Shown: in pieces, positions 6,584 through 16,376 of the stretch
Position numbering within the stretch: position 1 is the first letter of the stretch
Layout: the number at the start of each line of letters is the position of its first letter
NCBI GenBank assembly: GCA_021781475.1
Contig: JAJXWT010000009.1
Location: 1-36,896 of the forward strand
Direction of reading: 5' to 3'
Length of the DNA stretch: 36,896 nucleotides
Source of the DNA: a bacterium
GTDB lineage: Bacteria > Patescibacteriota > Saccharimonadia > Saccharimonadales > Saccharimonadaceae
Translations under genes and position numbers: made by a program
Notes under the pieces: model-generated
Told to the model about the DNA's origin: nothing
Databases searched by the model: none
What the model saw: only the letters and a program-made list of their open reading frames with translations

Positions 6584-6796
6584 ATGCCACGCCATAATAA
6601 ATCACAAAAATATACCCGTGCCACGCCACCAACAGGGGCGTGCGAACAAAAACGACGCTACGCCAATCGGGTTGATGCAGAGCGGCAAGCTGAGCTTGGC
6701 ATGCTACAGACGCCCGGGCTCGAGCTCACAGTATACCAGTGCCAGTATTGCCGGGGCTGGCACCTTACTAGTAGACAAACTGGCGAGTCGGAATAA
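6584..6796 (+). CDS. Small Cys-containing protein, possible zinc ribbon
   Basis: A 70-aa protein divergent from the atp operon. Features are ACEQKRRY near the middle and a C-terminal YQCQYCRGWHLTS. The CxxC plus an isolated Cys and the following GWHLT resemble small phage-like and CPR proteins ending in YxCxxCxxWHLT, which often bind zinc; the function is unknown. The start is set at MPRHNK because GAGGAG lies about 12 nt upstream, and the longer ORF would run into the atp promoter. Its 3' end overlaps the end of the convergent pilin-like gene by 29 bp. Confidence 0.6.
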   Translation: MPRHNKSQKYTRATPPTGACEQKRRYANRVDAERQAELGMLQTPGLELTVYQCQYCRGWHLTSRQTGESE

Positions 6797-9212
6797 GTAC
6801 TTGCGAAGGGTTTGGATGTGTCAGCGAATCAACCGTACCGTTACCAAGCTGGCCAACATTATTAGCCCCCGCCGCGTATACGTTACCGTCGCTCCCCAGT
6901 ACATAGGTCGTGTATTCGTCGCGCGTTGATAAGTCGACAGCCGTCACCCCAGCTGGTAGCGTGAATTCCGCCGTATAGCAAATCGCGTAGTTATTCGAAG
7001 AAGTACCGACACCGCCATTACCAAGCTTACCGTACACATTACGCCCTGCACCGTACACCTGCCCGTCAGTCCCAATAATGAGCAGGGAATTGTATTGGTA
7101 TTCCCAGTTACTATCAAGCTTGTTGTAGTCTACTTTTACCGTGCCGTTTTGGTATATGTTCATGTTAATCGGGCTTGTGCTCGACGTACATAGGCCGCCG
7201 TTTGAGCCGGCGTTTGGCATCGTAGAATAGTTAGCAAATTCACCATAGGTATTGTCGCCCGAGCACCACACGCCGGACGTGCCGGGGTCGTACCGCAACC
7301 CGCAGAACGTGTATGGCATCGATATCATCCCTTTCCATGGGTAGACACGCGTGTTAACGTTCCATGTCTGGCTTGATGTCCCGTTACAGGTATACAGCTG
7401 GGGCTGGGTGCCGTTGGCGGTCGCGCCGCCTGGCCTGTCGATACAGTAGCCTGTATTTTCTTTGAGGCGGATTGTGCTATCCGACTCTACTACCCACTGT
7501 TGGGCTGCGCTCCCATTACACGTATATATTCGCAATTTCGTGCCATTTGCGATTGTATTACCCGGTAGGTCGACACAGGTGCTGCTGCCTGTGGTGCCCG
7601 CCGTGCTGCTAGCCGAAAAGGGCAGCCACAGCGCACCCGTATCGGCAGTCCAAAACCAGCGCTGCGCATCGGTGCCGTTACAGCCATATATATCCAGGTT
7701 AGTCCCACTTGAAAAGTTCGAGCCTATAACGTCTAGGCACTGGCCCGTAGCAGTACTCGCATTGATCGTGCCGCCAGTAGCAGTGTACGAGCTTGGCGAG
7801 TTACCCCATACCCACGCAGGGTTCGTGCCGGTTGAGCCCGTATTTATACCAGTCCCTGACTCACTTTGGCAAGTCGTCGAAGTGCACGACGAGGCACCAG
7901 GCGGTATAATGCCTAAATCTCCAGAAAACCAAATCACGCCATCGGTCGTAAGCACAAAAATATTGCCGCCTTGGCTGCTGTGATACTGCATGAGCACCTT
8001 CTGTACCTTGCGCGCCACGCTACCAGCCGCCGGAATTACGTACTTTACTGGCGTGTACACATTACCGTTTACCGTTCCCGCTATTTGGCCTGTGCCGCTT
8101 AAGCCTGCACAGTACAAATTATTATCGCTCGCAATGACACATGCGTCCCTATCTTGTATCTCAACGCTCACCGCACTAAGGCCTGCCGGCAAAATAAACG
8201 GCGGAACAGTCGCGCCACCCGAAGGTACAAGGGGAACATTGGGCATAGATGAGTTACCATTGCCCAACCGGCCCCAGCCGTCGTCGCCTGCACAGTACGC
8301 TTGGGCAGGGGTTGTTGAACTGCCTGCGATTGCACACACATTGTCACCCCCGTAGCCACTGACCGAAATACTGGTTGCGGTAAGGCCAGCCGGCAAACTC
8401 ATTTTTATCCAATAGCCCGTTTCGACCCCTAGGGCGTCATTACTCGTTGTGTAGCCACCCCGGCACCACACATTATTATCATTGCCAATGATGCATAAAA
8501 ACGTTGCGCCAAACCCCGATGTCTTGACCTTTATCACCTTAGTAACACCCGTTGGCAGGGCCATCTTAACGGGCGTTGCGGCATCAGCAGGTGTGCGCGA
8601 ATCGGTCAGCTGGCCACCGCTATTTATACCAAACCCATACAATTGGTTATCGGCTGTCCAGAACAAGCCCATATCATTCGTCGCGTTGCCGCTAGTACCG
8701 TCATACCCCGCGCCACCAGAAAGCATTGGGGCCGCTGTATTTGAGCTACTGTAGTTAAAAGTTGCGGTCGTAGTGCGCCACACCGTATTAGGGCTTGACG
8801 TTTGGGTTAATTGCAACGTCGCCAGCACCGAATACAAGACAGCGGAGTATTGGCCAGTTGTCGCGGCGCCAACACTAAAGGTAGTGCGTACGTTACCGTT
8901 CAAGAGCACGTAACACTGTGAGGGGGTCGTGCTACAGTTAACGCTTGTGTAACCGGTGCAATCCGACTGTGGCGTCAGCGGGCTGCTGCTGCTCCAGGTT
9001 GCGACACCATTGTTGGCCTCGATACATGTTTTTGCCTTAGCCCAACCCGCTTCGGCCGCCTCGCGCGCAAGTTGCGCATAGTATTGTTCGTCAAGCGCCG
9101 AGCGCGTGCCGCTAATAACCGAAAGCGCCACCGAAAGCGCCATTAACACCAAAACCGATGCTAATACCATTGTTGGGAGCGCAAATCCGCGCTGGCGCCG
9201 TGCCATGCTCAT
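6768..9212 (-). CDS. Pilin-like giant surface protein with RCC1-type repeats and a ricin-type lectin domain
   Basis: An 814-aa protein with a class III (type IV pilin) signal, RRQRGFALPTMVLASVLVLM, and a long hydrophobic helix. The usual Glu5 is absent, as in PilX-like minor pilins. The body contains GxG-type RCC1 beta-propeller repeats, for example YGAGRNVYGKLGNGG and YAAGANNVGQLGNG. At about residues 480-625 lies a ricin-type beta-trefoil with three QxW motifs (QRWFW, QQWVV, QTWNV), each preceded by CLD/CVD/CID and YTCNG or YGCNG. The lectin is flanked by propeller repeats on both sides. The likely role is glycan binding on a pilus or the cell surface (inference). There is no Shine-Dalgarno; TATATA lies 5 nt before the chosen ATG. 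Confidence 0.82.
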   Translation of the reverse strand: MSMARRQRGFALPTMVLASVLVLMALSVALSVISGTRSALDEQYYAQLAREAAEAGWAKAKTCIEANNGVATWSSSSPLTPQSDCTGYTSVNCSTTPSQCYVLLNGNVRTTFSVGAATTGQYSAVLYSVLATLQLTQTSSPNTVWRTTTATFNYSSSNTAAPMLSGGAGYDGTSGNATNDMGLFWTADNQLYGFGINSGGQLTDSRTPADAATPVKMALPTGVTKVIKVKTSGFGATFLCIIGNDNNVWCRGGYTTSNDALGVETGYWIKMSLPAGLTATSISVSGYGGDNVCAIAGSSTTPAQAYCAGDDGWGRLGNGNSSMPNVPLVPSGGATVPPFILPAGLSAVSVEIQDRDACVIASDNNLYCAGLSGTGQIAGTVNGNVYTPVKYVIPAAGSVARKVQKVLMQYHSSQGGNIFVLTTDGVIWFSGDLGIIPPGASSCTSTTCQSESGTGINTGSTGTNPAWVWGNSPSSYTATGGTINASTATGQCLDVIGSNFSSGTNLDIYGCNGTDAQRWFWTADTGALWLPFSASSTAGTTGSSTCVDLPGNTIANGTKLRIYTCNGSAAQQWVVESDSTIRLKENTGYCIDRPGGATANGTQPQLYTCNGTSSQTWNVNTRVYPWKGMISMPYTFCGLRYDPGTSGVWCSGDNTYGEFANYSTMPNAGSNGGLCTSSTSPINMNIYQNGTVKVDYNKLDSNWEYQYNSLLIIGTDGQVYGAGRNVYGKLGNGGVGTSSNNYAICYTAEFTLPAGVTAVDLSTRDEYTTYVLGSDGNVYAAGANNVGQLGNGTVDSLTHPNPSQVLIPTRQFVY

Positions 9213-9237
9213 ATACTTATATAGTAGCACAAGCAGT

Positions 9238-9294: not shown

Positions 9295-9570
9295 ATGAAA
9301 CAAGCAGCAACTACAACCAATGTTACCGTGTACAGCACCCCTTGGTGCGCGTTTTGCAAAACCGAAAAACAATATTTAGAACACCTTGGCGTCACGTTTA
9401 TTAACCGCGACATCGAAACAGAGCCAGCCGCAAAAGCCGAACTCGACGGTAAACTTGGTGGCAGCTTTACGGGTGTACCCGTCACTGATATTTGCGGCAC
9501 CCTTGTGACCGGTTTTGATCGCAAAAAAATTGACGATTTACTGCGTGCAAACGGCCTGGTTGCCGCTTAA
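9295..9570 (+). CDS. Glutaredoxin-like thiol-disulfide protein
   Basis: A 91-aa thioredoxin-fold protein of the glutaredoxin/NrdH type. Strand 1 VTVYSTPWCAFCK carries the CxxC redox pair (Cys-Ala-Phe-Cys). A TGVPV segment supplies the conserved cis-proline, and the C-terminal helix reads KKIDDLLRANG. It is probably a cytoplasmic electron donor or protein-disulfide reductase. The start is fixed by GGAGG 7 nt upstream of the ATG; the ORF track starts 63 codons earlier, antisense to the pilin-like gene. It overlaps the convergent ABC-F stop by 4 nt. Confidence 0.9.
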   Translation: MKQAATTTNVTVYSTPWCAFCKTEKQYLEHLGVTFINRDIETEPAAKAELDGKLGGSFTGVPVTDICGTLVTGFDRKKIDDLLRANGLVAA

Positions 9571-11339
9571 GCGCCAACCTGCACCACATCGCCGCCGATT
9601 TTTTGCCTAAAATACGTATCGTGGCTAACGTACAAAATGGCGCCGGCGTATTTTTGCAGCGCCGCTTCCAACTCTTCGATACTTGGCAGGTCAAGGTGAT
9701 TAGTCGGCTCGTCCAAAATTAACAGCTGTGGCTCGTTGGCCAGCATGCTCATTAATTGGAACCGCGCCTTTTGGCCACCGCTTAAGTGGGAGAGGGGCGT
9801 GCGCTCGTCGCTTTCGGTGAACAAATAGTCCGCCAGCAGCTGGCGCATTTTTGTTTGGTTACAATTCAAGTTTTTGTCGGCGTACATGTGCTCTATGGCG
9901 GCGCCCAGCGGCAGTTCCAGGTAGCGCGCGCCAATTTCTTGCTCGTACACGCCCACGCGCACATGCGGATCAAGCGTTAATTCGCCACTATACATAATAA
10001 TGTCCGGCCGCCGCTCGCTCGTTGCTATCGCCGACTTTCTCGAACCCGAGTCGAGCGAGGCTCCGGGGACCTCTGCGACGCCCGGCGTGAGAGCAGGAGG
10101 CGACAGTAATGGGCGAGAAGGCGCAGTCGACGGGAGCGGGGATGAGCTTAATAATGCCTTAATCAGCGTCGTTTTACCGGCACCGTTACGCCCACGCAGC
10201 TCCACGGCCTCGCCCTCGCGCAAATCAATATTTACGTCCCTAAATAGCACCATATCGCCATAACCCAGTGCCACATCGCTGGCGCGCACCAACACATGCT
10301 TACTGCGCGATTCATCGTTTTTTACGTTCAGCCGGATATTTTTGGCCTTAAACTTTTGGTATTGGTTCGCCACCTTGTAATTTAGGTTTTCTACGCTGTC
10401 TTTATCAATCCAAAATGTGGGCTTTTCAATCTTTTCAAGTTCGGCTAGCTGTTCGCGCGCCATGTTTTCCAGCCGTTTAAAACGCTGGATAGTACCAGGG
10501 TTACGCGATTTTTCTTTAAGCCGCTGGTAATCGAGCACTTTTTGTTTTAAGTTTATAATCCGCTTTTCAATCATTTCAAAATCGTTCATGGCCGTACCTG
10601 TGGTGCTGGCATTTTGCTTTAGGTAGGCATCGTAATTGCCCTTGTAGCTTACGGTGCTGCCGTCTTTTAGCTCCACAATCCTATCAACTTCGTGCAGCAC
10701 ATCGCGGTCGTGGGTAATAATCAGCGCCGCCTGCTGGTAGCTTTTTAGCCAATCAATAAACTGCCGCTTGGCCACGTAATCCATGTGGTTGGTCGGCTCG
10801 TCCAGTAGCGCCAAATCGGCGTTGGCATGCATGATTTTGATTACCTCGACCAGCCGCTTTTGGCCGCCCGAAAGGGTGCTGAGTGCACGGTCGCCAAAAC
10901 CTTCCATTTGAAAGTTTTTTAGCTCTTCGGCCACTAGCTCTTCAACTTGGTAAAAATTCTTTTGGCCAAACCGCTCCAGCGCCTCGGTATATTCGTTGAT
11001 TTTTTTAAGGTCATCGCCCATATGATCGGGGTAGGTGTGCAAAATATGGTGCAGGCCGGCATATTCTGGCAACCCCTGTAAAATGTATTCCATAACCATT
11101 TGTTCGCCCGCGCCAAGGTGTTCTTGGGCCGTCGCCACCACGGTGGTGCCTTTTTTATACACTACATCGCCAGTGAAATCCGTGTCGGCCCCCGTTAAAA
11201 TACCAAACAGGGTACTTTTGCCAATGCCATTACGGCCGATTACGCCAACCTTTTCGTGGTCGTCCACGCTAAATTTAACCCCGGTCATTAACACTTTAGG
11301 GCCAAACGATTTTTCGGTAACGGTAATATCGGCAATCAT
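9567..11339 (-). CDS. ABC-F family ATPase with a low-complexity insert in the second ATPase domain
   Basis: A cytoplasmic ABC-F protein (590 aa) with two ATPase domains and no membrane segments. Domain 1: GRNGIGKST, LSGGQKR, LLDEPTNHMD. Domain 2: GRNGAGKTT, LSGGQKARF, LILDEPTNHLD. The linker between them is charged and helical, as in ribosome-associated Uup/EttA-type factors; the subfamily is uncertain. About 45 residues rich in Ser, Pro and Ala (plus-strand 10008-10146) are inserted just after the second Walker A helix, where relatives have a short loop. The start is MIADITV at 11339, with the upstream extension being unlike protein. Confidence 0.93.
   Translation of the reverse strand: MIADITVTEKSFGPKVLMTGVKFSVDDHEKVGVIGRNGIGKSTLFGILTGADTDFTGDVVYKKGTTVVATAQEHLGAGEQMVMEYILQGLPEYAGLHHILHTYPDHMGDDLKKINEYTEALERFGQKNFYQVEELVAEELKNFQMEGFGDRALSTLSGGQKRLVEVIKIMHANADLALLDEPTNHMDYVAKRQFIDWLKSYQQAALIITHDRDVLHEVDRIVELKDGSTVSYKGNYDAYLKQNASTTGTAMNDFEMIEKRIINLKQKVLDYQRLKEKSRNPGTIQRFKRLENMAREQLAELEKIEKPTFWIDKDSVENLNYKVANQYQKFKAKNIRLNVKNDESRSKHVLVRASDVALGYGDMVLFRDVNIDLREGEAVELRGRNGAGKTTLIKALLSSSPLPSTAPSRPLLSPPALTPGVAEVPGASLDSGSRKSAIATSERRPDIIMYSGELTLDPHVRVGVYEQEIGARYLELPLGAAIEHMYADKNLNCNQTKMRQLLADYLFTESDERTPLSHLSGGQKARFQLMSMLANEPQLLILDEPTNHLDLPSIEELEAALQKYAGAILYVSHDTYFRQKIGGDVVQVGA
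10008..10146 (-). repeat. In-frame inserted segment with an inverted repeat inside the ABC-F gene
   Basis: This stretch encodes SSSPLPSTAPSRPLL through SERRPD, which has no counterpart in ABC-F proteins. On the plus strand it holds CTCGCTCG (10014-10021) facing CGAGCGAG (10052-10059), a perfect 8-bp arm pair, with CTCGaacCCGAG nested inside. Codons such as TCG, CTC and CCG are denser than in the flanks. It looks like a small palindromic element tolerated in frame. Confidence 0.5.
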
Positions 11340-11697: not shown

Positions 11698-11782
11698 GCC
11701 CCGCGGCACACGCCGCACAATTAGGCCGCACGGTCGAGCGTAAGCTCCCGCGCACCCGCCTGACTGTGCGGCCTTTTTGTTT
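11698..11782 (+). terminator. Structured terminator repeat, copy A
   Basis: Two hairpins. The first is GCGGC-acac-GCCGC. The second has 12-bp arms, GGCCGCACGGTC (11724-11735) and GACTGTGCGGCC (11762-11773), with one G-T pair, an inner GAGC-gtaa-GCTC hairpin, then TTTTTGTTT. The U-tract makes it a terminator for the plus-strand 81-aa gene. It abuts the reverse transcriptase stop on the other strand. It is nearly identical to copy B at 13651-13735. Confidence 0.85.
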
Positions 11783-12755
11783 AGTATGGATGCTGTTTCA
11801 GCACGTGGATAAGTTTTTCCGCCCGCGCACCCATTTGGCGCACATGCCTGCTACGGCTATGAGACGATTCGCCACTAAGGTTCAGCACGCCATTGTAGCC
11901 TGCCATGACCGCCAAATCATGTAGGTCCGTGGGCGCGCCACTTTGTATTTTGGCTTCAGCTTGATTCATTGCAAGGCTTGCAGCCTCTAACAAGGCCGGA
12001 GAGGGTGAAATGCGCCCCTGATATAATGATAGCCCAGTAATCGTAAGTGCTGGATGCTCATTGTCTAAGTGCCGAATGCTGGATTTGTGGTGCGCAAATT
12101 CCATACCTGGCGCCTGTGTAGTATATATTTCGCGAATTACCCGGCGGAACGGTTTGTCAAGGGCGTCAGGGTCAGCGCTAGAAACAGTCAAGTCGTCTAA
12201 GTACCGGGTTGCGCGTTCACCGATATTTCGCATTGCCATGGCGTGCACCAATAAATCATCAGCATCTTTCATATACCAGTTAAATAACAACGGGCTCGTT
12301 ACATTACCTTGTGGCAAGCCATCAACTCCTGGCAAAAAAGCGCCCTCCCGCACATAGCTCTCAATGCGGCGGGCATCATCCCGCTGATCACGCCGGCGGG
12401 CGTGGCGACCTAGGATTTTTTCTACTTTTTCTCCCATGGCGCTTTCCTGAACATGCCCATAGGCATCAGAAAAATCTGTCAAATAAAATATGGTTGAATG
12501 GCGGTGGGGAAGAACGTTGTCACGTAAGCTTTTGCCAAGCACACCACCTGTCGCAATTGGCAACGGAACGCGCAGCGACTGCATGGCGCGTAATGCCAGC
12601 ATCTGCTCATGTCGGACTTCTTCGTCATATTTCCATACCAGGCGCGTGTGCGGGTGATCGTTTTTATCAAACAAAAAAAGCACCGGTTGTAAATCGGCCG
12701 CGTCATTTGCGTTTAAAACTACAGTTTCTTTCTTTCGTTGCATATATGGCGCCAT
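11781..12755 (-). CDS. Retron-like single-domain reverse transcriptase
   Basis: A 324-aa RNA-directed DNA polymerase with no endonuclease, maturase or other added domain. Fingers/palm motifs in order: ATGGVLGKSLRDNVLPH (about 68-84), resembling the retron NAxxH region as NVLPH; motif A YLTDFSDAYG (91-100); motif B GLPQGNVTSP (146-155), with SP rather than the SQ of diversity-generating RTs; motif C YLDD (185-188); a GMEFAHHKSS motif D region; and TITGL (238-242) after the palm, where retron RTs have VTG. No Shine-Dalgarno precedes the ATG. It is transcribed from its own promoter behind a ~565-nt untranslated leader. The precise class (retron or unclassified RT group) needs a phylogeny. Confidence 0.88.
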   Translation of the reverse strand: MAPYMQRKKETVVLNANDAADLQPVLFLFDKNDHPHTRLVWKYDEEVRHEQMLALRAMQSLRVPLPIATGGVLGKSLRDNVLPHRHSTIFYLTDFSDAYGHVQESAMGEKVEKILGRHARRRDQRDDARRIESYVREGAFLPGVDGLPQGNVTSPLLFNWYMKDADDLLVHAMAMRNIGERATRYLDDLTVSSADPDALDKPFRRVIREIYTTQAPGMEFAHHKSSIRHLDNEHPALTITGLSLYQGRISPSPALLEAASLAMNQAEAKIQSGAPTDLHDLAVMAGYNGVLNLSGESSHSRSRHVRQMGARAEKLIHVLKQHPY

Positions 12756-12767
12756 GTTTATGGAAAG

Positions 12768-12792
12768 GGGTGCCGCTTGCGCTGCGGCACCC
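12768..12792 (-). promoter_or_regulatory. Perfect 9-bp hairpin just upstream of the reverse transcriptase start
   Basis: GGGTGCCGC and GCGGCACCC enclose a 7-nt loop. The 3' foot is 12 nt before the RT ATG and is followed by CTTTCC. It could be the end of the noncoding RNA, an attenuator, or a block to translation. There is no ribosome site between it and the ATG. Confidence 0.6.
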
Positions 12793-12808
12793 TAGGTTTC
12801 CTCTGGTC

Positions 12809-12900
12809 ATGCGAAGGACGGATAGATTGTTCACGGAGGTTATAGCGCGCATTTCTCCTGCTCGCAGCACACGCCGCAAGTGAACATATAATTTACGCAT
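12809..12900 (-). other. Compound stem-loop in the RT leader
   Basis: ATGCGAA (12809-12815) pairs with TTACGCAT (12893-12900) with one bulge. Inside, TGTTCAC (12828-12834) pairs perfectly with GTGAACA (12880-12886). The 45-nt tip contains GGAG/CTCC and GCGCGC. The two nested stems make a roughly 92-nt arm, the largest local structure found in the leader and a candidate for the reverse-transcribed part. Confidence 0.45.
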
Positions 12901-13326
12901 GACAGCCGGAGGCATCGAAGGCTTGCGACCCGCCACGCCTGGTGTGCACCACCGGTCATGGGAAATCACACTCCTACGCCGACTACGCCCACGAGGGGCC
13001 AGCCGGATGATGCAGAATCGCAACGTCGCCACCAGTCATGGTACGCTTGGTCATGATCCCGCACCCGTACGGCGCCAACCACACCACACGGGGTCTGGCA
13101 ATCCGGGGAACGAGTCCGCCGGCACCCGGTCGCCCACTTGCGTGGTCCAGCCGCACTATTGCGCTGCCCATGCCTATTCAGGCTGGTACAACGCGGTAAG
13201 CGGAGGGGGGCTTGGTGACCTGTGCGCACTGTGGCTCACATCCGAATATCGGTCCCTCAGGATATTGCATTGTATTGCTGCCTATCCGCCCTATCCCGCC
13301 AGTATGACCTAAACGGGATGCGGACC

Positions 13327-13356
13327 ATTATATATGCGCTAACTACATAAGGGCAA
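13327..13356 (-). promoter_or_regulatory. Promoter of the reverse transcriptase leader
   Basis: On the minus strand TTGCCC (13356-13351), an 18-bp spacer and a perfect TATAAT (13332-13327). Transcription is predicted to begin near 13320, about 565 nt before the RT start codon. Confidence 0.72.
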
Positions 13357-13399: not shown

Positions 13400-13651
13400 A
13401 TGGATAATCTGAATATCAACAAGGGTATTCACTTGGAAAAGGGAAGGATAAGGGTCAACGTGCCCGAAACGGCATACGCGCGCACCAAGGCGATGCACGA
13501 AGACCGGAAGGTTGTTCGTGCCAAGCGTGACAATGCAACGAAGCATGCGCGCCAACAGCTCACCATTCTAGCCACCTTGCTGTGGATCGAATGGAAACTC
13601 GCCGAGCGAGCGTTCGAGCGGCGGTATGGCACCAAGATGACCTACCGCTAG
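13400..13651 (+). CDS. Small basic hypothetical protein (83 aa)
   Basis: Lys/Arg-rich and predicted helical, with repeated charged segments such as HEDRKVVRAKRDNATKHAR and an aromatic tail WIEWKLAERAFERRYG. No family is recognised; nucleic-acid binding is possible from charge alone. It diverges from the RT leader and ends at structured terminator copy B, mirroring the arrangement of the 81-aa gene with copy A. The ATG at 13400 lacks a ribosome site. An internal GTG near 13460 has AAGGATAAGGG upstream and may be the real start, giving about 63 aa. Confidence 0.55.
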   Translation: MDNLNINKGIHLEKGRIRVNVPETAYARTKAMHEDRKVVRAKRDNATKHARQQLTILATLLWIEWKLAERAFERRYGTKMTYR

Positions 13652-13735
13652 CCCTGCGGCAAAGCCGCACAATTAGGCCGCACAGTCGAGCACTACGCTC
13701 CTGTGTACCCGCCTGACTGTGCGGCCTTTTTGTTA
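13651..13735 (+). terminator. Structured terminator repeat, copy B
   Basis: Same plan as copy A. Hairpin GCGGC-aaa-GCCGC; 12-bp perfect arms GGCCGCACAGTC (13676-13687) and GACTGTGCGGCC (13715-13726); inner GAGC-actac-GCTC; then TTTTTGTT. Differences from copy A lie in the loops and at one stem position (A here, G in copy A) that still pairs. It terminates the 83-aa gene and lies at the 3' end of the convergent ParB-like gene. Confidence 0.85.
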
Positions 13736-13749
13736 GGCAAAAAATAGCG

Positions 13750-15231
13750 CTAGCTTGCCGCCATAAGCTCCATATCATGCACTGAAATGTCAGGGATATT
13801 CTCGTCGACCGGTGTTTCCTGCACAAGCGCATACACGCCCAACCGCGCTCGCATTGTGTCAGATAGGTCATTACGAGACTCCAAAAGCCATAACGCCTTT
13901 ATGGCCGCCTCAAACAATGCATTGCTCGCAATCCTGCGCCGCTGCATATAGGTCTCTGCCAACGTGGGTTCATGCCCGCCATCATTACTGTTTTGTGAGC
14001 CATCAATAATTTCACGGCGGTATCGGTCCTGGTCGCTAAGGCCCGCATTGGAGTCCTGCTCGTCTAACGCTGGCTGACCAGCATGATTAGCCTCATCCCA
14101 AATCAACTGCTTAACTGCCGCGAGTTGTGCCGAAAGGCGCATGTCCCTGGGACCACGGAACTCTTTTTTGCGCTGCGCTGAACGCCGGGCGAGCTGCTCC
14201 GCCTTAATATTTATAAAGCACAGCTCAACCTCGTGGGTGGCAGCATCCTCCGCACTTTCAAAATATGTTTCGCCGTCGCTCGTTGTCCACATGCCAAGCC
14301 CATCAGTCGTAGCGCCTAACCCGCTCGCTTTGCTATCCGAGGCAAACAAGCCAAGCTCCGCTGGGTTTATCTTACCTGAAGCGTTTTCTCGATAATACTC
14401 CAGCCACGTTTTATATATCTCTGCGGCGTCAATTAGCCAGCTAAACGGATACTGCTTTTCGAACGACTGCAGGCTTGGCGGATAGTCTGTAAATACTAGC
14501 GCATCGTGAACGCGGTCGGGGGGGACAGCAAACTTTTCGGCACACTTTTTTTGTGTATAATCGGGGTCAATCGACCGCATTAGGTCAATATAGCTACGCA
14601 TTGAGCGCGCCTCGTCTGCCTTGGGCGGGTTCACGCGCGCGTTGTTTTCAATAAATTGCATTGGCAGAGCGTCTACGTACGAGATGTTTTCGTGTACGCT
14701 ACTTAAAATGAGTGATTCAACGCTATACCCATGCTGTTCAATAAGTATATCCGCTGCTCGTATTCGCCGCTCGCCAGCAATATGAATGACATACCGCAAG
14801 CCCTTTGGCGTCTGCCACGGGGTCAAATCGGCAAGGGTATACACCCTGCCGCTATCTTGGTTCGCCCGGTTGTATTGTTCAAGGTAGCGAACAGCGCTTT
14901 TTTCGGCATGCAAGCCCTCTATAACGGGCTCCATCAGTTCGTGTACAAGCCCGTCAACGTCTTCGGCAAGCGGCATCGCGTCCGCCAGTTCTTGCAACTT
15001 TACTGGGTCGAACTCCCGGCGAATTTGCGGTAATACGTTAATAACATTACGGGGGATCTCCATAATGTGCCGGTTGCCGAACTCCGCAATTGGCTTACCA
15101 TCCGCACCAAGTTTATAGTGCCGCTCTGTGTCAGTGTTTATGGGTGCGGGCACATTCTCTGGCGCAGCCGGAACTACTGGTGCCGTATTTAGCCCATGCT
15201 CCGTATGTAGTGCCCCGACTCTCTCGCTCAT
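13750..15231 (-). CDS. ParB/Spo0J-like nuclease-fold DNA-binding protein
   Basis: A 493-aa protein with a ParB N-terminal domain: REFDPVKLQELADAM, then HIAGERRIRAADIL (the GERRxRA motif, about 153-164), then FIENNARVNPPKADEARSM, equivalent to ENxxRxxLxPxEEA. TQKKCAEKFAVPPDRVHDAL follows as a helix-turn-helix-like segment. The C-terminal 250 residues are unlike chromosomal ParB and contain a long insert with charged helices. No ParA lies nearby, so a plasmid/phage-type or regulatory ParB is more likely than the chromosomal one. TATAAA lies 5 nt before the ATG at 15231; the track's GTG is one codon earlier. Confidence 0.8.
   Translation of the reverse strand: MSERVGALHTEHGLNTAPVVPAAPENVPAPINTDTERHYKLGADGKPIAEFGNRHIMEIPRNVINVLPQIRREFDPVKLQELADAMPLAEDVDGLVHELMEPVIEGLHAEKSAVRYLEQYNRANQDSGRVYTLADLTPWQTPKGLRYVIHIAGERRIRAADILIEQHGYSVESLILSSVHENISYVDALPMQFIENNARVNPPKADEARSMRSYIDLMRSIDPDYTQKKCAEKFAVPPDRVHDALVFTDYPPSLQSFEKQYPFSWLIDAAEIYKTWLEYYRENASGKINPAELGLFASDSKASGLGATTDGLGMWTTSDGETYFESAEDAATHEVELCFINIKAEQLARRSAQRKKEFRGPRDMRLSAQLAAVKQLIWDEANHAGQPALDEQDSNAGLSDQDRYRREIIDGSQNSNDGGHEPTLAETYMQRRRIASNALFEAAIKALWLLESRNDLSDTMRARLGVYALVQETPVDENIPDISVHDMELMAAS
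14541..14558. repeat. Palindrome CACAC-T7-GTGTAT inside the ParB-like gene
   Basis: ACAC and GTGT arms enclose a T-tract. This copy lies within the coding sequence (codons for TQKKCA on the minus strand) and matches the copy in the ParB/HNH intergenic region except for one extra T. Confidence 0.45.
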
Positions 15232-15246
15232 CACTATTTATATTGC

Positions 15247-15263
15247 CACACTTTTTTGTGTAT
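15247..15263. promoter_or_regulatory. Palindrome CACAC-T6-GTGTAT in the ParB/HNH intergenic region
   Basis: It lies 4 bp upstream of the ParB TATAAA box and between the two divergent start codons. Its position suits an operator, possibly for the ParB-like protein itself. The second copy is at 14541-14558. Confidence 0.45.
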
Positions 15264-15336
15264 TGCCAGTAAACCATGGCATAAATGTATCCGCTTTTGC
15301 TTGCATAGCCACCTGCGCCTTTGCTTTACTCAACAC

Positions 15337-15864
15337 ATGCGTTCCATGCCAGAGTATATCAATGCTGTTAAGCCCTACCTCGAGAAAGCGCCGGAACAAG
15401 CGTTTGAAAATATTCGCACCGTCCGGTCTATCTCACTTGCTGTCAATCAGGCAATTGCGGTCTACGGAGGCTACGAAATCCCATCACCAGACGTATCATG
15501 GAACTTATTGGAATATTGTGCCGATACAAATAGCGCAATCGGCTGGCTTGCCACCATGATAACTATCGATGAAGAATTTGGCTGCTGGTGCTTGCCGCTC
15601 GCAGCAGAATACGATGAAAAAACCCGGGCACGATATCCTCAAGTGTCGCGAAAAGAATATGGCGCACACAGCACGCTTGCACACCGCTTCGTGCTCAGTT
15701 CATTGTTCAATCCAACACTCACACGCGATTTGCACTGGGACCATATTTGCCGCTCACACGCCTGCTGTAACCCGACCCACGGAGAACTCGTGACTGCAAA
15801 AACGAATAATGCGCGCAAAGACCTCAGTCTTCGACACACGACAGGGATGGAGACGTTATTCTAA
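15337..15864 (+). CDS. HNH endonuclease-like protein
   Basis: A 175-aa protein whose C-terminal third carries an HNH zinc-finger nuclease signature: LHWDHICRSHACCNPTHGEL, then TAKTNNARKD. This fits the DHxCxxxxCxNPxHL...N pattern of homing-type HNH nucleases found in phages and mobile elements. The N-terminal 100 residues are helical and unassigned. The long ORF start is unlikely; at 15337 an extended -10-like TGC-TTTACT sits 6 nt before the ATG. It diverges from the ParB-like gene and ends 23 bp before smpB. Whether it cuts DNA cannot be told from sequence. Confidence 0.75.
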   Translation: MRSMPEYINAVKPYLEKAPEQAFENIRTVRSISLAVNQAIAVYGGYEIPSPDVSWNLLEYCADTNSAIGWLATMITIDEEFGCWCLPLAAEYDEKTRARYPQVSRKEYGAHSTLAHRFVLSSLFNPTLTRDLHWDHICRSHACCNPTHGELVTAKTNNARKDLSLRHTTGMETLF

Positions 15865-15887: not shown

Positions 15888-16376
15888 ATGCCAAAAAAGA
15901 AACCTGCCGTAAAAAAACACGTAGGCACGCCAATTGTAAATAAGCGCGCCCGGTTTGATTATGACCTTGGCGATGAAATCGTAGCTGGGCTAAGCTTAAA
16001 CGGGCAAGAGGCCCGCGCGGCGCGAGATGGGCATATTCAGCTCAAGGGCGCGTTTGTGACCATTAAAGATAACGAATTATGGCTTAATAACGCCAGCTTT
16101 AGTTTAAAACTGAATCAAAAAGGCGATACCAACGCGCGCACCATTGACACGACGCCGCGTAAGCTGCTTGCCAAACGGAAAGAGATTACCCAGCTTGCCG
16201 AACACAAAAAGAAAGGTATGACCATTGTGCCAACCAAACTGCTCACGCAGGGGCGCTACATTAAATTAGTTATTGCCCTTGGTAAGGGTAAAAAGTTATA
16301 CGACAAACGTGAAAGTCTTAAGCGCCGCCAGCAAGACCGCGAATCGCGGCGCGCCATTGCGGGCCACCACGGCTAG
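15888..16376 (+). CDS. smpB: SsrA-binding protein SmpB
   Basis: RNA-binding partner of tmRNA in rescue of stalled ribosomes (162 aa). Family blocks are present: IVNKRARFDYDL, AGLSLNGQEARAARDG (normally GxEVKSxRxG), PRKLLAKRKEI, MTIVPTKLLTQGRYIKLVI, and the C-terminal ALGKGKKLYDKRESLKRR tail that enters the decoding centre. The EARAAR replacement of the EVKS block is divergent but the fold elements are intact. TATTAT lies 6 nt before the ATG with no Shine-Dalgarno. The stop overlaps the convergent glycosyltransferase stop. Confidence 0.95.
   Translation: MPKKKPAVKKHVGTPIVNKRARFDYDLGDEIVAGLSLNGQEARAARDGHIQLKGAFVTIKDNELWLNNASFSLKLNQKGDTNARTIDTTPRKLLAKRKEITQLAEHKKKGMTIVPTKLLTQGRYIKLVIALGKGKKLYDKRESLKRRQQDRESRRAIAGHHG

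Follow-up and report, generated by a model that had tools for sequence, protein, structure and literature searches.

In described retrons, the two termini of the msr-msd RNA base-pair along about 8-30 nt. The resulting a1/a2 stem contains, or ends beside, the priming guanosine, which usually lies in a TAGC motif (PMC6868368). The priming motif of retrons Mxa1 (Mx162) and Sau1 (Sa163) is CAGC, and the same review lists 'standard' retron cassettes that consist of RNA and reverse transcriptase (RT) with no further protein (PMC6868368). Validated retrons also include YCDD-type variants of the catalytic core and, in RT-Vch2, a V-to-I change at the VTG position (PMC6868368). Among other defence-associated RTs, the ncRNA of DRT2 is described in PMC12039810 as pseudoknotted.

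Here we describe a locus that is probably a divergent retron-like element of the Patescibacteria, with an oversized ncRNA and a location in a variable chromosomal hotspot. It lies in a stretch of 36,896 nt (hereafter, the window) that constitutes contig 9 of the 0.81 Mb, 97% complete genome of a Saccharibacteria bacterium. The locus shares with the Ec83/Ec78 (St85-family) retrons, its best PDB matches, the RT fold and profile and the order promoter, structured RNA with a1/a2 and RT, a layout that agrees with the 'standard' retron cassette (PMC6868368). It differs from them in that its RT falls in a separate clade and carries YLDD, NVxPH and ITG motifs, in that no ATPase/HNH or other effector is present, and in its RNA, which is about twice as long and has an outer stem around a2. 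The myxobacterial retrons Mxa1 and Sau1 share a CAGC following a1 and a long RNA, with the Mx162 precursor measuring 241 nt against about double that length here (478 nt from a1 start to a2 end); their RTs lie outside our RT tree, and close kinship to the RT described here is not claimed. DRT2 and other defence-associated RTs with ncRNA resemble the locus in that a structured ncRNA, possibly with a pseudoknot, adjoins the RT and no separate toxin gene is present, but the similarity of their RTs is far lower (2e-10 for DRT2 versus 1.9e-35 for Ec83), and the locus presents a retron-type a1/a2 stem and motifs.

A reverse transcriptase clade related to retron enzymes

The RT gene (11781-12755, minus strand) is an intact ORF encoding a 324-aa protein that matches Pfam RVT_1 (6e-12) and retains the catalytic residues. 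Searches against the PDB with a profile of its clade returned retron RTs first (Ec83, 1.9e-35; Ec78, 9e-33; Ec86, 1e-29), with group II (1.5e-18), DRT2 (2e-10) and DGR (1e-6) RTs at lower ranks, and the top six Foldseek matches to an AlphaFold2 model of the protein (pLDDT 87) were all retron RTs. The region X position of the NAXXH motif reads NVLPH in the window (residue 80) and N-x-x-x-H in most of the clade, with a strict NAxxH just in L020 and L021, while the region Y position carries ITG (residue 239), a VTG-type motif; at both positions the change from the retron motif is a conservative one. The core reads YLDD (residue 185) instead of YADD, with the catalytic DD retained.

Relatives of the RT-leader unit were gathered through genome searches and one contig scan, and their RTs share about 20-52% identity with that of the window. 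They belong to the Saccharibacteria, the Parcubacteria and other Patescibacteria, the nearest falling in Candidatus Saccharibacteria and one of the more distant in Candidatus Parcubacteria. The clade encompasses loci from the same genus as the window (L016), the same family (L017-L022), the same class (L097-L099) and other Patescibacteria (L061, L100). A tree of 27 rows, which included DGR RTs and three PDB retron RTs and left out group II and DRT RTs, placed 11 of the 12 clade members together (87/90); the remaining member, L020, formed a long branch of unsure placement. The clade's neighbour is a 98/94 branch that contains the three PDB retron RTs together with further RTs from Patescibacteria; the clade is not nested within that branch and stands apart from DGR RTs. 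By profile and predicted fold, the RT is hence closest to retron RTs, yet in a clade of its own.

Two other RT classes were considered and set aside. DGR RTs are separated from the RT by the tree and by motifs, as they lack those at the NAXXH and VTG positions, and a group II intron was discarded on the grounds that no Rfam intron match was obtained and that group_II_RT_mat scored 36 bits against a cut-off of 300. The NCBIfam model retron_St85_RT scored 64 bits, far under its cut-off of 235. Searches with the window RT protein returned no relatives among viral contigs and plasmids, and one weak partial match among phages. In the related locus L018 (5219-7138), the reading frame of the RT continues into a YaaA (peroxide stress) domain (PF03883, 1e-63) with a GGAG preceding an internal ATG, and this arrangement may represent a fusion or two coupled proteins, with YaaA as a possible effector.

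The putative leader RNA and its recurring a1/a2 stem

An earlier note on this DNA had proposed that the 565 nt preceding the RT gene (12756-13320, minus strand) form a leader that is structured, does not code for protein and belongs with the RT, and had named folding against shuffled controls as the check. The leader folds at -243.8 kcal/mol, compared to -225.7 +/- 7.1 for dinucleotide shuffles (z -2.54), with only two of 400 shuffles folding as well. The effect is specific to this strand (z -0.33 for the reverse complement), and length-matched coding stretches yielded z values of +0.6 (RT), -0.6 (ParB-like) and -0.4 (ABC-F). The ORFs of the leader overlap one another on both strands and show no similarity to ORFs in the leaders of relatives; the conserved protein that would have contradicted the non-coding reading was thus not found. 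Rfam searches of the leader, retron msr models included, gave no match at gathering threshold or E<=10, bar an unrelated sub-threshold one. Within the genus, leader DNA returned just a 25-bp low-complexity match to the Pro/Thr repeat of an unrelated surface protein, which was dismissed as chance. The leader is a candidate msr-msd precursor, and its reading as a structured non-coding partner of the RT is supported by the folding statistics and by similarly positioned leaders before the RT in diverged relatives.

The 5' end of the leader, as delimited in the earlier note, fits the best sigma70-like promoter match in the region (TTGCCC-18-TATAAT, 13327-13356, minus strand), identified by consensus with 10 of 12 positions matching. 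Since this match ends at 13327, a transcript start near 13320 is a reasonable prediction.

A long-range stem that was absent from the earlier description of the leader spans 478 nt of it. Among long-range stems in the 720 nt upstream of the RT, the best pairs the a1 arm (AGGGCGGATAGG, 13281-13292, minus strand) with the a2 arm (TCTATCCGTCCT, 12815-12826, minus strand), and all 12 bases of a1 are paired to a2 in the minimum free energy (MFE) structure. Directly 3' of a1 lies a CAGC (13277-13280, minus strand) that contains the candidate priming guanosine, G13278. Taken alone, the stem of the window is weak: it includes two G-U pairs and does not differ significantly from shuffles (p=0.12; 0.116).

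The main evidence that this stem is real comes from the relatives, in which the sequence varies while pairing at a fixed place is predicted to be kept. All relatives with upstream DNA examined, except L100, have approximately 0.3-0.5 kb immediately upstream of the RT in which no convincing gene is seen; the apparent a1 of L100 falls inside a coding gene and was not counted. Stem scores were compared with 1000 shuffles per locus. An a1/a2-type stem recurs at the same place in nine relatives, six of them at p<=0.005 and with 13-16 bp (L016, 0.003; L022, 0.003; L061, 0.002; L097, 0.001; L098, 0.005; L099, 0.004). L019 gave p=0.059, and significance was not reached in L018, L020 and L021. In nearly all relatives, a stem whose end lies 27-80 nt before the RT ranks first or close to first among long-range stems, with enclosed spans of 213 to 511 nt across loci. 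The stem sequences are unrelated, as illustrated by L016 (GGGCGGGCAGC/GCTGCCCGCCC), L022 (CAGGCGGGAG/CTCCCGCCTG) and L061 (GAATTTGGGAGTTG/CAACTCCCAAATTC), and have little in common other than purine-rich a1 arms; the stems of L097 and L099 measure 16 bp and 15 bp. Each of the 11 leaders folded was more stable than its shuffles (z -2.1 to -6.2), with a1/a2 at least partly formed in the MFE structure of nine. The clade does not share one priming motif: a1 is followed by, or ends in, CAGC in the window and L016 and is followed by TAGC in L097, L021 has a CAGC 6 nt beyond a1, and no such motif is evident in the rest.

Among other RT lineages included for comparison only (L102-L104, L106-L109), a1/a2 was absent in L102, L103, L106 and L107 and present in L104 and L109. 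Two Patescibacteria RTs outside the clade, L101 (3050-4437) and L109 (3508-4630), present strong a1/a2 stems of 15 bp (p=0.001) and 13 bp (p=0.005), respectively, and are further retron candidates on this pairing.

These observations bear on the notion that the element has decayed, the leader being a pseudogene remnant or degenerate spacer whose structure is a residue of GC-richness. The raised GC content of the leader (0.60 versus 0.46-0.49) and a window stem that is weaker than in several relatives are in line with this notion, but dinucleotide shuffles control for GC, the reverse complement is unstructured and the RT ORF is intact, making it extremely unlikely.

Hairpins around the a2 arm and the presumed copied region

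All the inverted repeats named in the earlier note are present on the minus strand. The 5' hairpin ATCCCG...CGGGAT (13293-13319, minus strand; p=0.093 alone) precedes a1, and hairpins are also found directly upstream of a1 in L016, L022, L061, L097 and L099. The CCAGCC and GGCTGG arms exist as described (13147-13152 and 13181-13186), but in the MFE fold the two do not pair to one another. The two-tier stem, which had been located at 12809-12900, was recovered with an 8-bp outer tier, formed by GTCATGCG (12896-12903, minus strand) and CGCATGAC (12806-12813, minus strand), and a 7-bp inner hairpin (TGTTCAC/GTGAACA; 12828-12886, minus strand, with arms at 12880-12886 and 12828-12834) that also forms in the MFE structure. 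The outer tier encloses a2, and the inner hairpin sits directly 5' of it. Comparable hairpins before a2 were judged by eye to be present in L016, L018, L021 and L022.

The outer stem around a2 is significant in the window (p=0.038), L018 (p=0.007), L019 (p=0.023) and L021 (p=0.001). L016 and L022, in which a comparable arrangement is seen by eye, do not reach significance, nor do most loci beyond the Saccharibacteria, which mostly lack the stem, and we therefore report it as a trend. Such a stem, together with a1/a2, could define a pseudoknot or a two-state switch, a supported though unproven trend. Following retron logic, copying would begin immediately 5' of a2 and the inner hairpin would be the first part to be copied, in partial agreement with the suggestion that the 92-nt arm is the reverse-transcribed region. 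This arm is not a plain msd stem, given that its outer tier wraps a2, and with 478 nt between a1 start and a2 end the part that is copied might be longer than this arm or be situated at another place.

A perfect 9-bp hairpin (12768-12792, minus strand) precedes the RT ATG by 12 nt; a perfect 9-bp hairpin of any kind with a loop of 3-10 nt arose in nine of 300 shuffles. Its position, and the U-tracts that follow it in L016, L018 and L019, where it is terminator-like, would suit a cis-regulatory attenuator in which the terminal hairpin sets the expression of the RT gene and the leader has no other function. However, no formal terminator was found in the window, and a structured RNA of 0.2-0.5 kb with a long-range a1/a2 stem, recurring beside retron-type RTs across the Patescibacteria, far exceeds the needs of attenuation. 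We regard this explanation as very unlikely.

A non-retron RT/ncRNA system of the DRT/UG-like kind would use the leader as template with another priming mode or product, such as repetitive or protein-primed DNA, and a1/a2 would be an architectural clamp that does not position a primer. Its appeal stems from a clade that falls outside the canonical retron RTs sampled, from long leaders, from an outer stem around a2 that would make a pseudoknot, a feature also described for the DRT2 ncRNA (PMC12039810), and from a missing effector, as in those DRT systems in which the DNA made by the RT itself serves as effector. Against this, retron RTs rank far above DRT RTs by both sequence and fold, the ITG/VTG motif is present, and the location of a1/a2 and the CAGC/TAGC motifs match retron rules; we consider such a system distinctly unlikely.

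The retron-like reading thus remains the preferred one, and the element likely works as retrons do. A promoter on the minus strand near 13330 would drive an RNA of approximately 500 nt, ending before the RT gene or reading into it. In the most likely scenario, the RNA starts around 13320 and a1 pairs with a2, as sequence and comparison suggest, which would place G13278 beside the region just 5' of a2. By analogy with known retrons, the RT may bind its own RNA and prime on the 2'-OH of G13278, and the RNA 5' of a2 would then be copied into single-stranded DNA joined to RNA. A bolder version, which we hold as tentative and rather unlikely, sees the clade as a Patescibacteria RT/ncRNA system of its own. 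Here a hairpin beside the RT start would enclose a2, in a pseudoknot or switch coupling DNA synthesis to RT expression, and the oversized RNA would give rise to long or multibranched DNA able to function with no protein effector.

A variable chromosomal site without a linked effector

The RT gene is flanked by genes encoding an ABC-F protein (9567-11339) and SmpB (smpB, 15888-16376). Of 13 genomes of the genus compared, two contain the RT; six others have an almost empty ABC-F to smpB interval, and in the remaining ones it holds differing gene sets, including ParB-like and HNH-like genes. The interval is therefore a variable hotspot, and the RT-leader unit is accessory.

Inspection of the neighbourhoods, including the region 3' of the RT, revealed no effector gene in the same orientation as the RT, either in the window or in most relatives. 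The neighbouring HNH-like and ParB-like genes were rejected as effectors, as they belong to the variable hotspot and the HNH-like gene occurs without an RT in another genome (G071). A missing effector does not exclude a retron, since RT-only 'standard' cassettes are on record (PMC6868368). The locus presents a1/a2 ends upstream of the RT (12 bp in the window), RT affinity to retrons and a VTG-type motif, agrees in part in its priming motif and at the NAXXH position, and departs from retrons in its YLDD core and in lacking the linked effector that characterizes the tripartite defence types I-XIII. We classify it as a new retron-like variant that represents a clade of the Patescibacteria and has an oversized RNA. 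As in retrons, its role may lie in phage defence or stress, sensing one or the other, but no partner protein is linked to it.

The locus extends the retron-like RTs by a distinct clade whose RNAs are very long, which has no attached effector and whose hosts have genomes of roughly 1 Mb at most. It makes it testable whether effector-less retron-like elements have a function for the host, and whether retron RTs with long templates could be useful for obtaining long single-stranded DNA in cells. Within an incomplete coverage of the literature, no paper dealing with retrons of Saccharibacteria or of any other Patescibacteria came up.

Several additional features of these loci were observed. ParB-like and HNH-endonuclease-like genes co-recur in the hotspot whether or not the RT is present (window, 13750-15864; L016, 5273-7169; L017, 707-4066; L128, 556-3450), and the pair may be a mobile or defence unit of its own. 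A divergent 83-aa ORF (13400-13651) lies opposite the leader. It matches no Pfam family, the other hotspot loci that were compared yielded no relative of it, and it could encode a small partner protein. An 83-nt unit composed of a hairpin and a T-run occurs twice in the same orientation (11699-11781 and 13652-13740; 88% identical), each copy directly after a small plus-strand ORF, and the two, which are the only good copies in the genome, bracket the segment containing the RT, the leader and the 83-aa ORF. They may mark the insertion or duplication route of this segment; an interpretation as integron attC sites was rejected by eye, as the core sites do not match and just two good copies exist. 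In two other Patescibacteria, ribosomal protein genes surround or adjoin the RT unit: based on reading of ORFs, it lies between rplA-like and rplJ-like genes in L098 (2207-7204) and beside rplL/rplJ in L061 (3863-5803). Elsewhere in the window, adjoining ATP synthase genes, an 820-aa protein (6768-9230) with a ricin-type lectin domain and RCC1-like repeats is a probable surface or adhesion protein.
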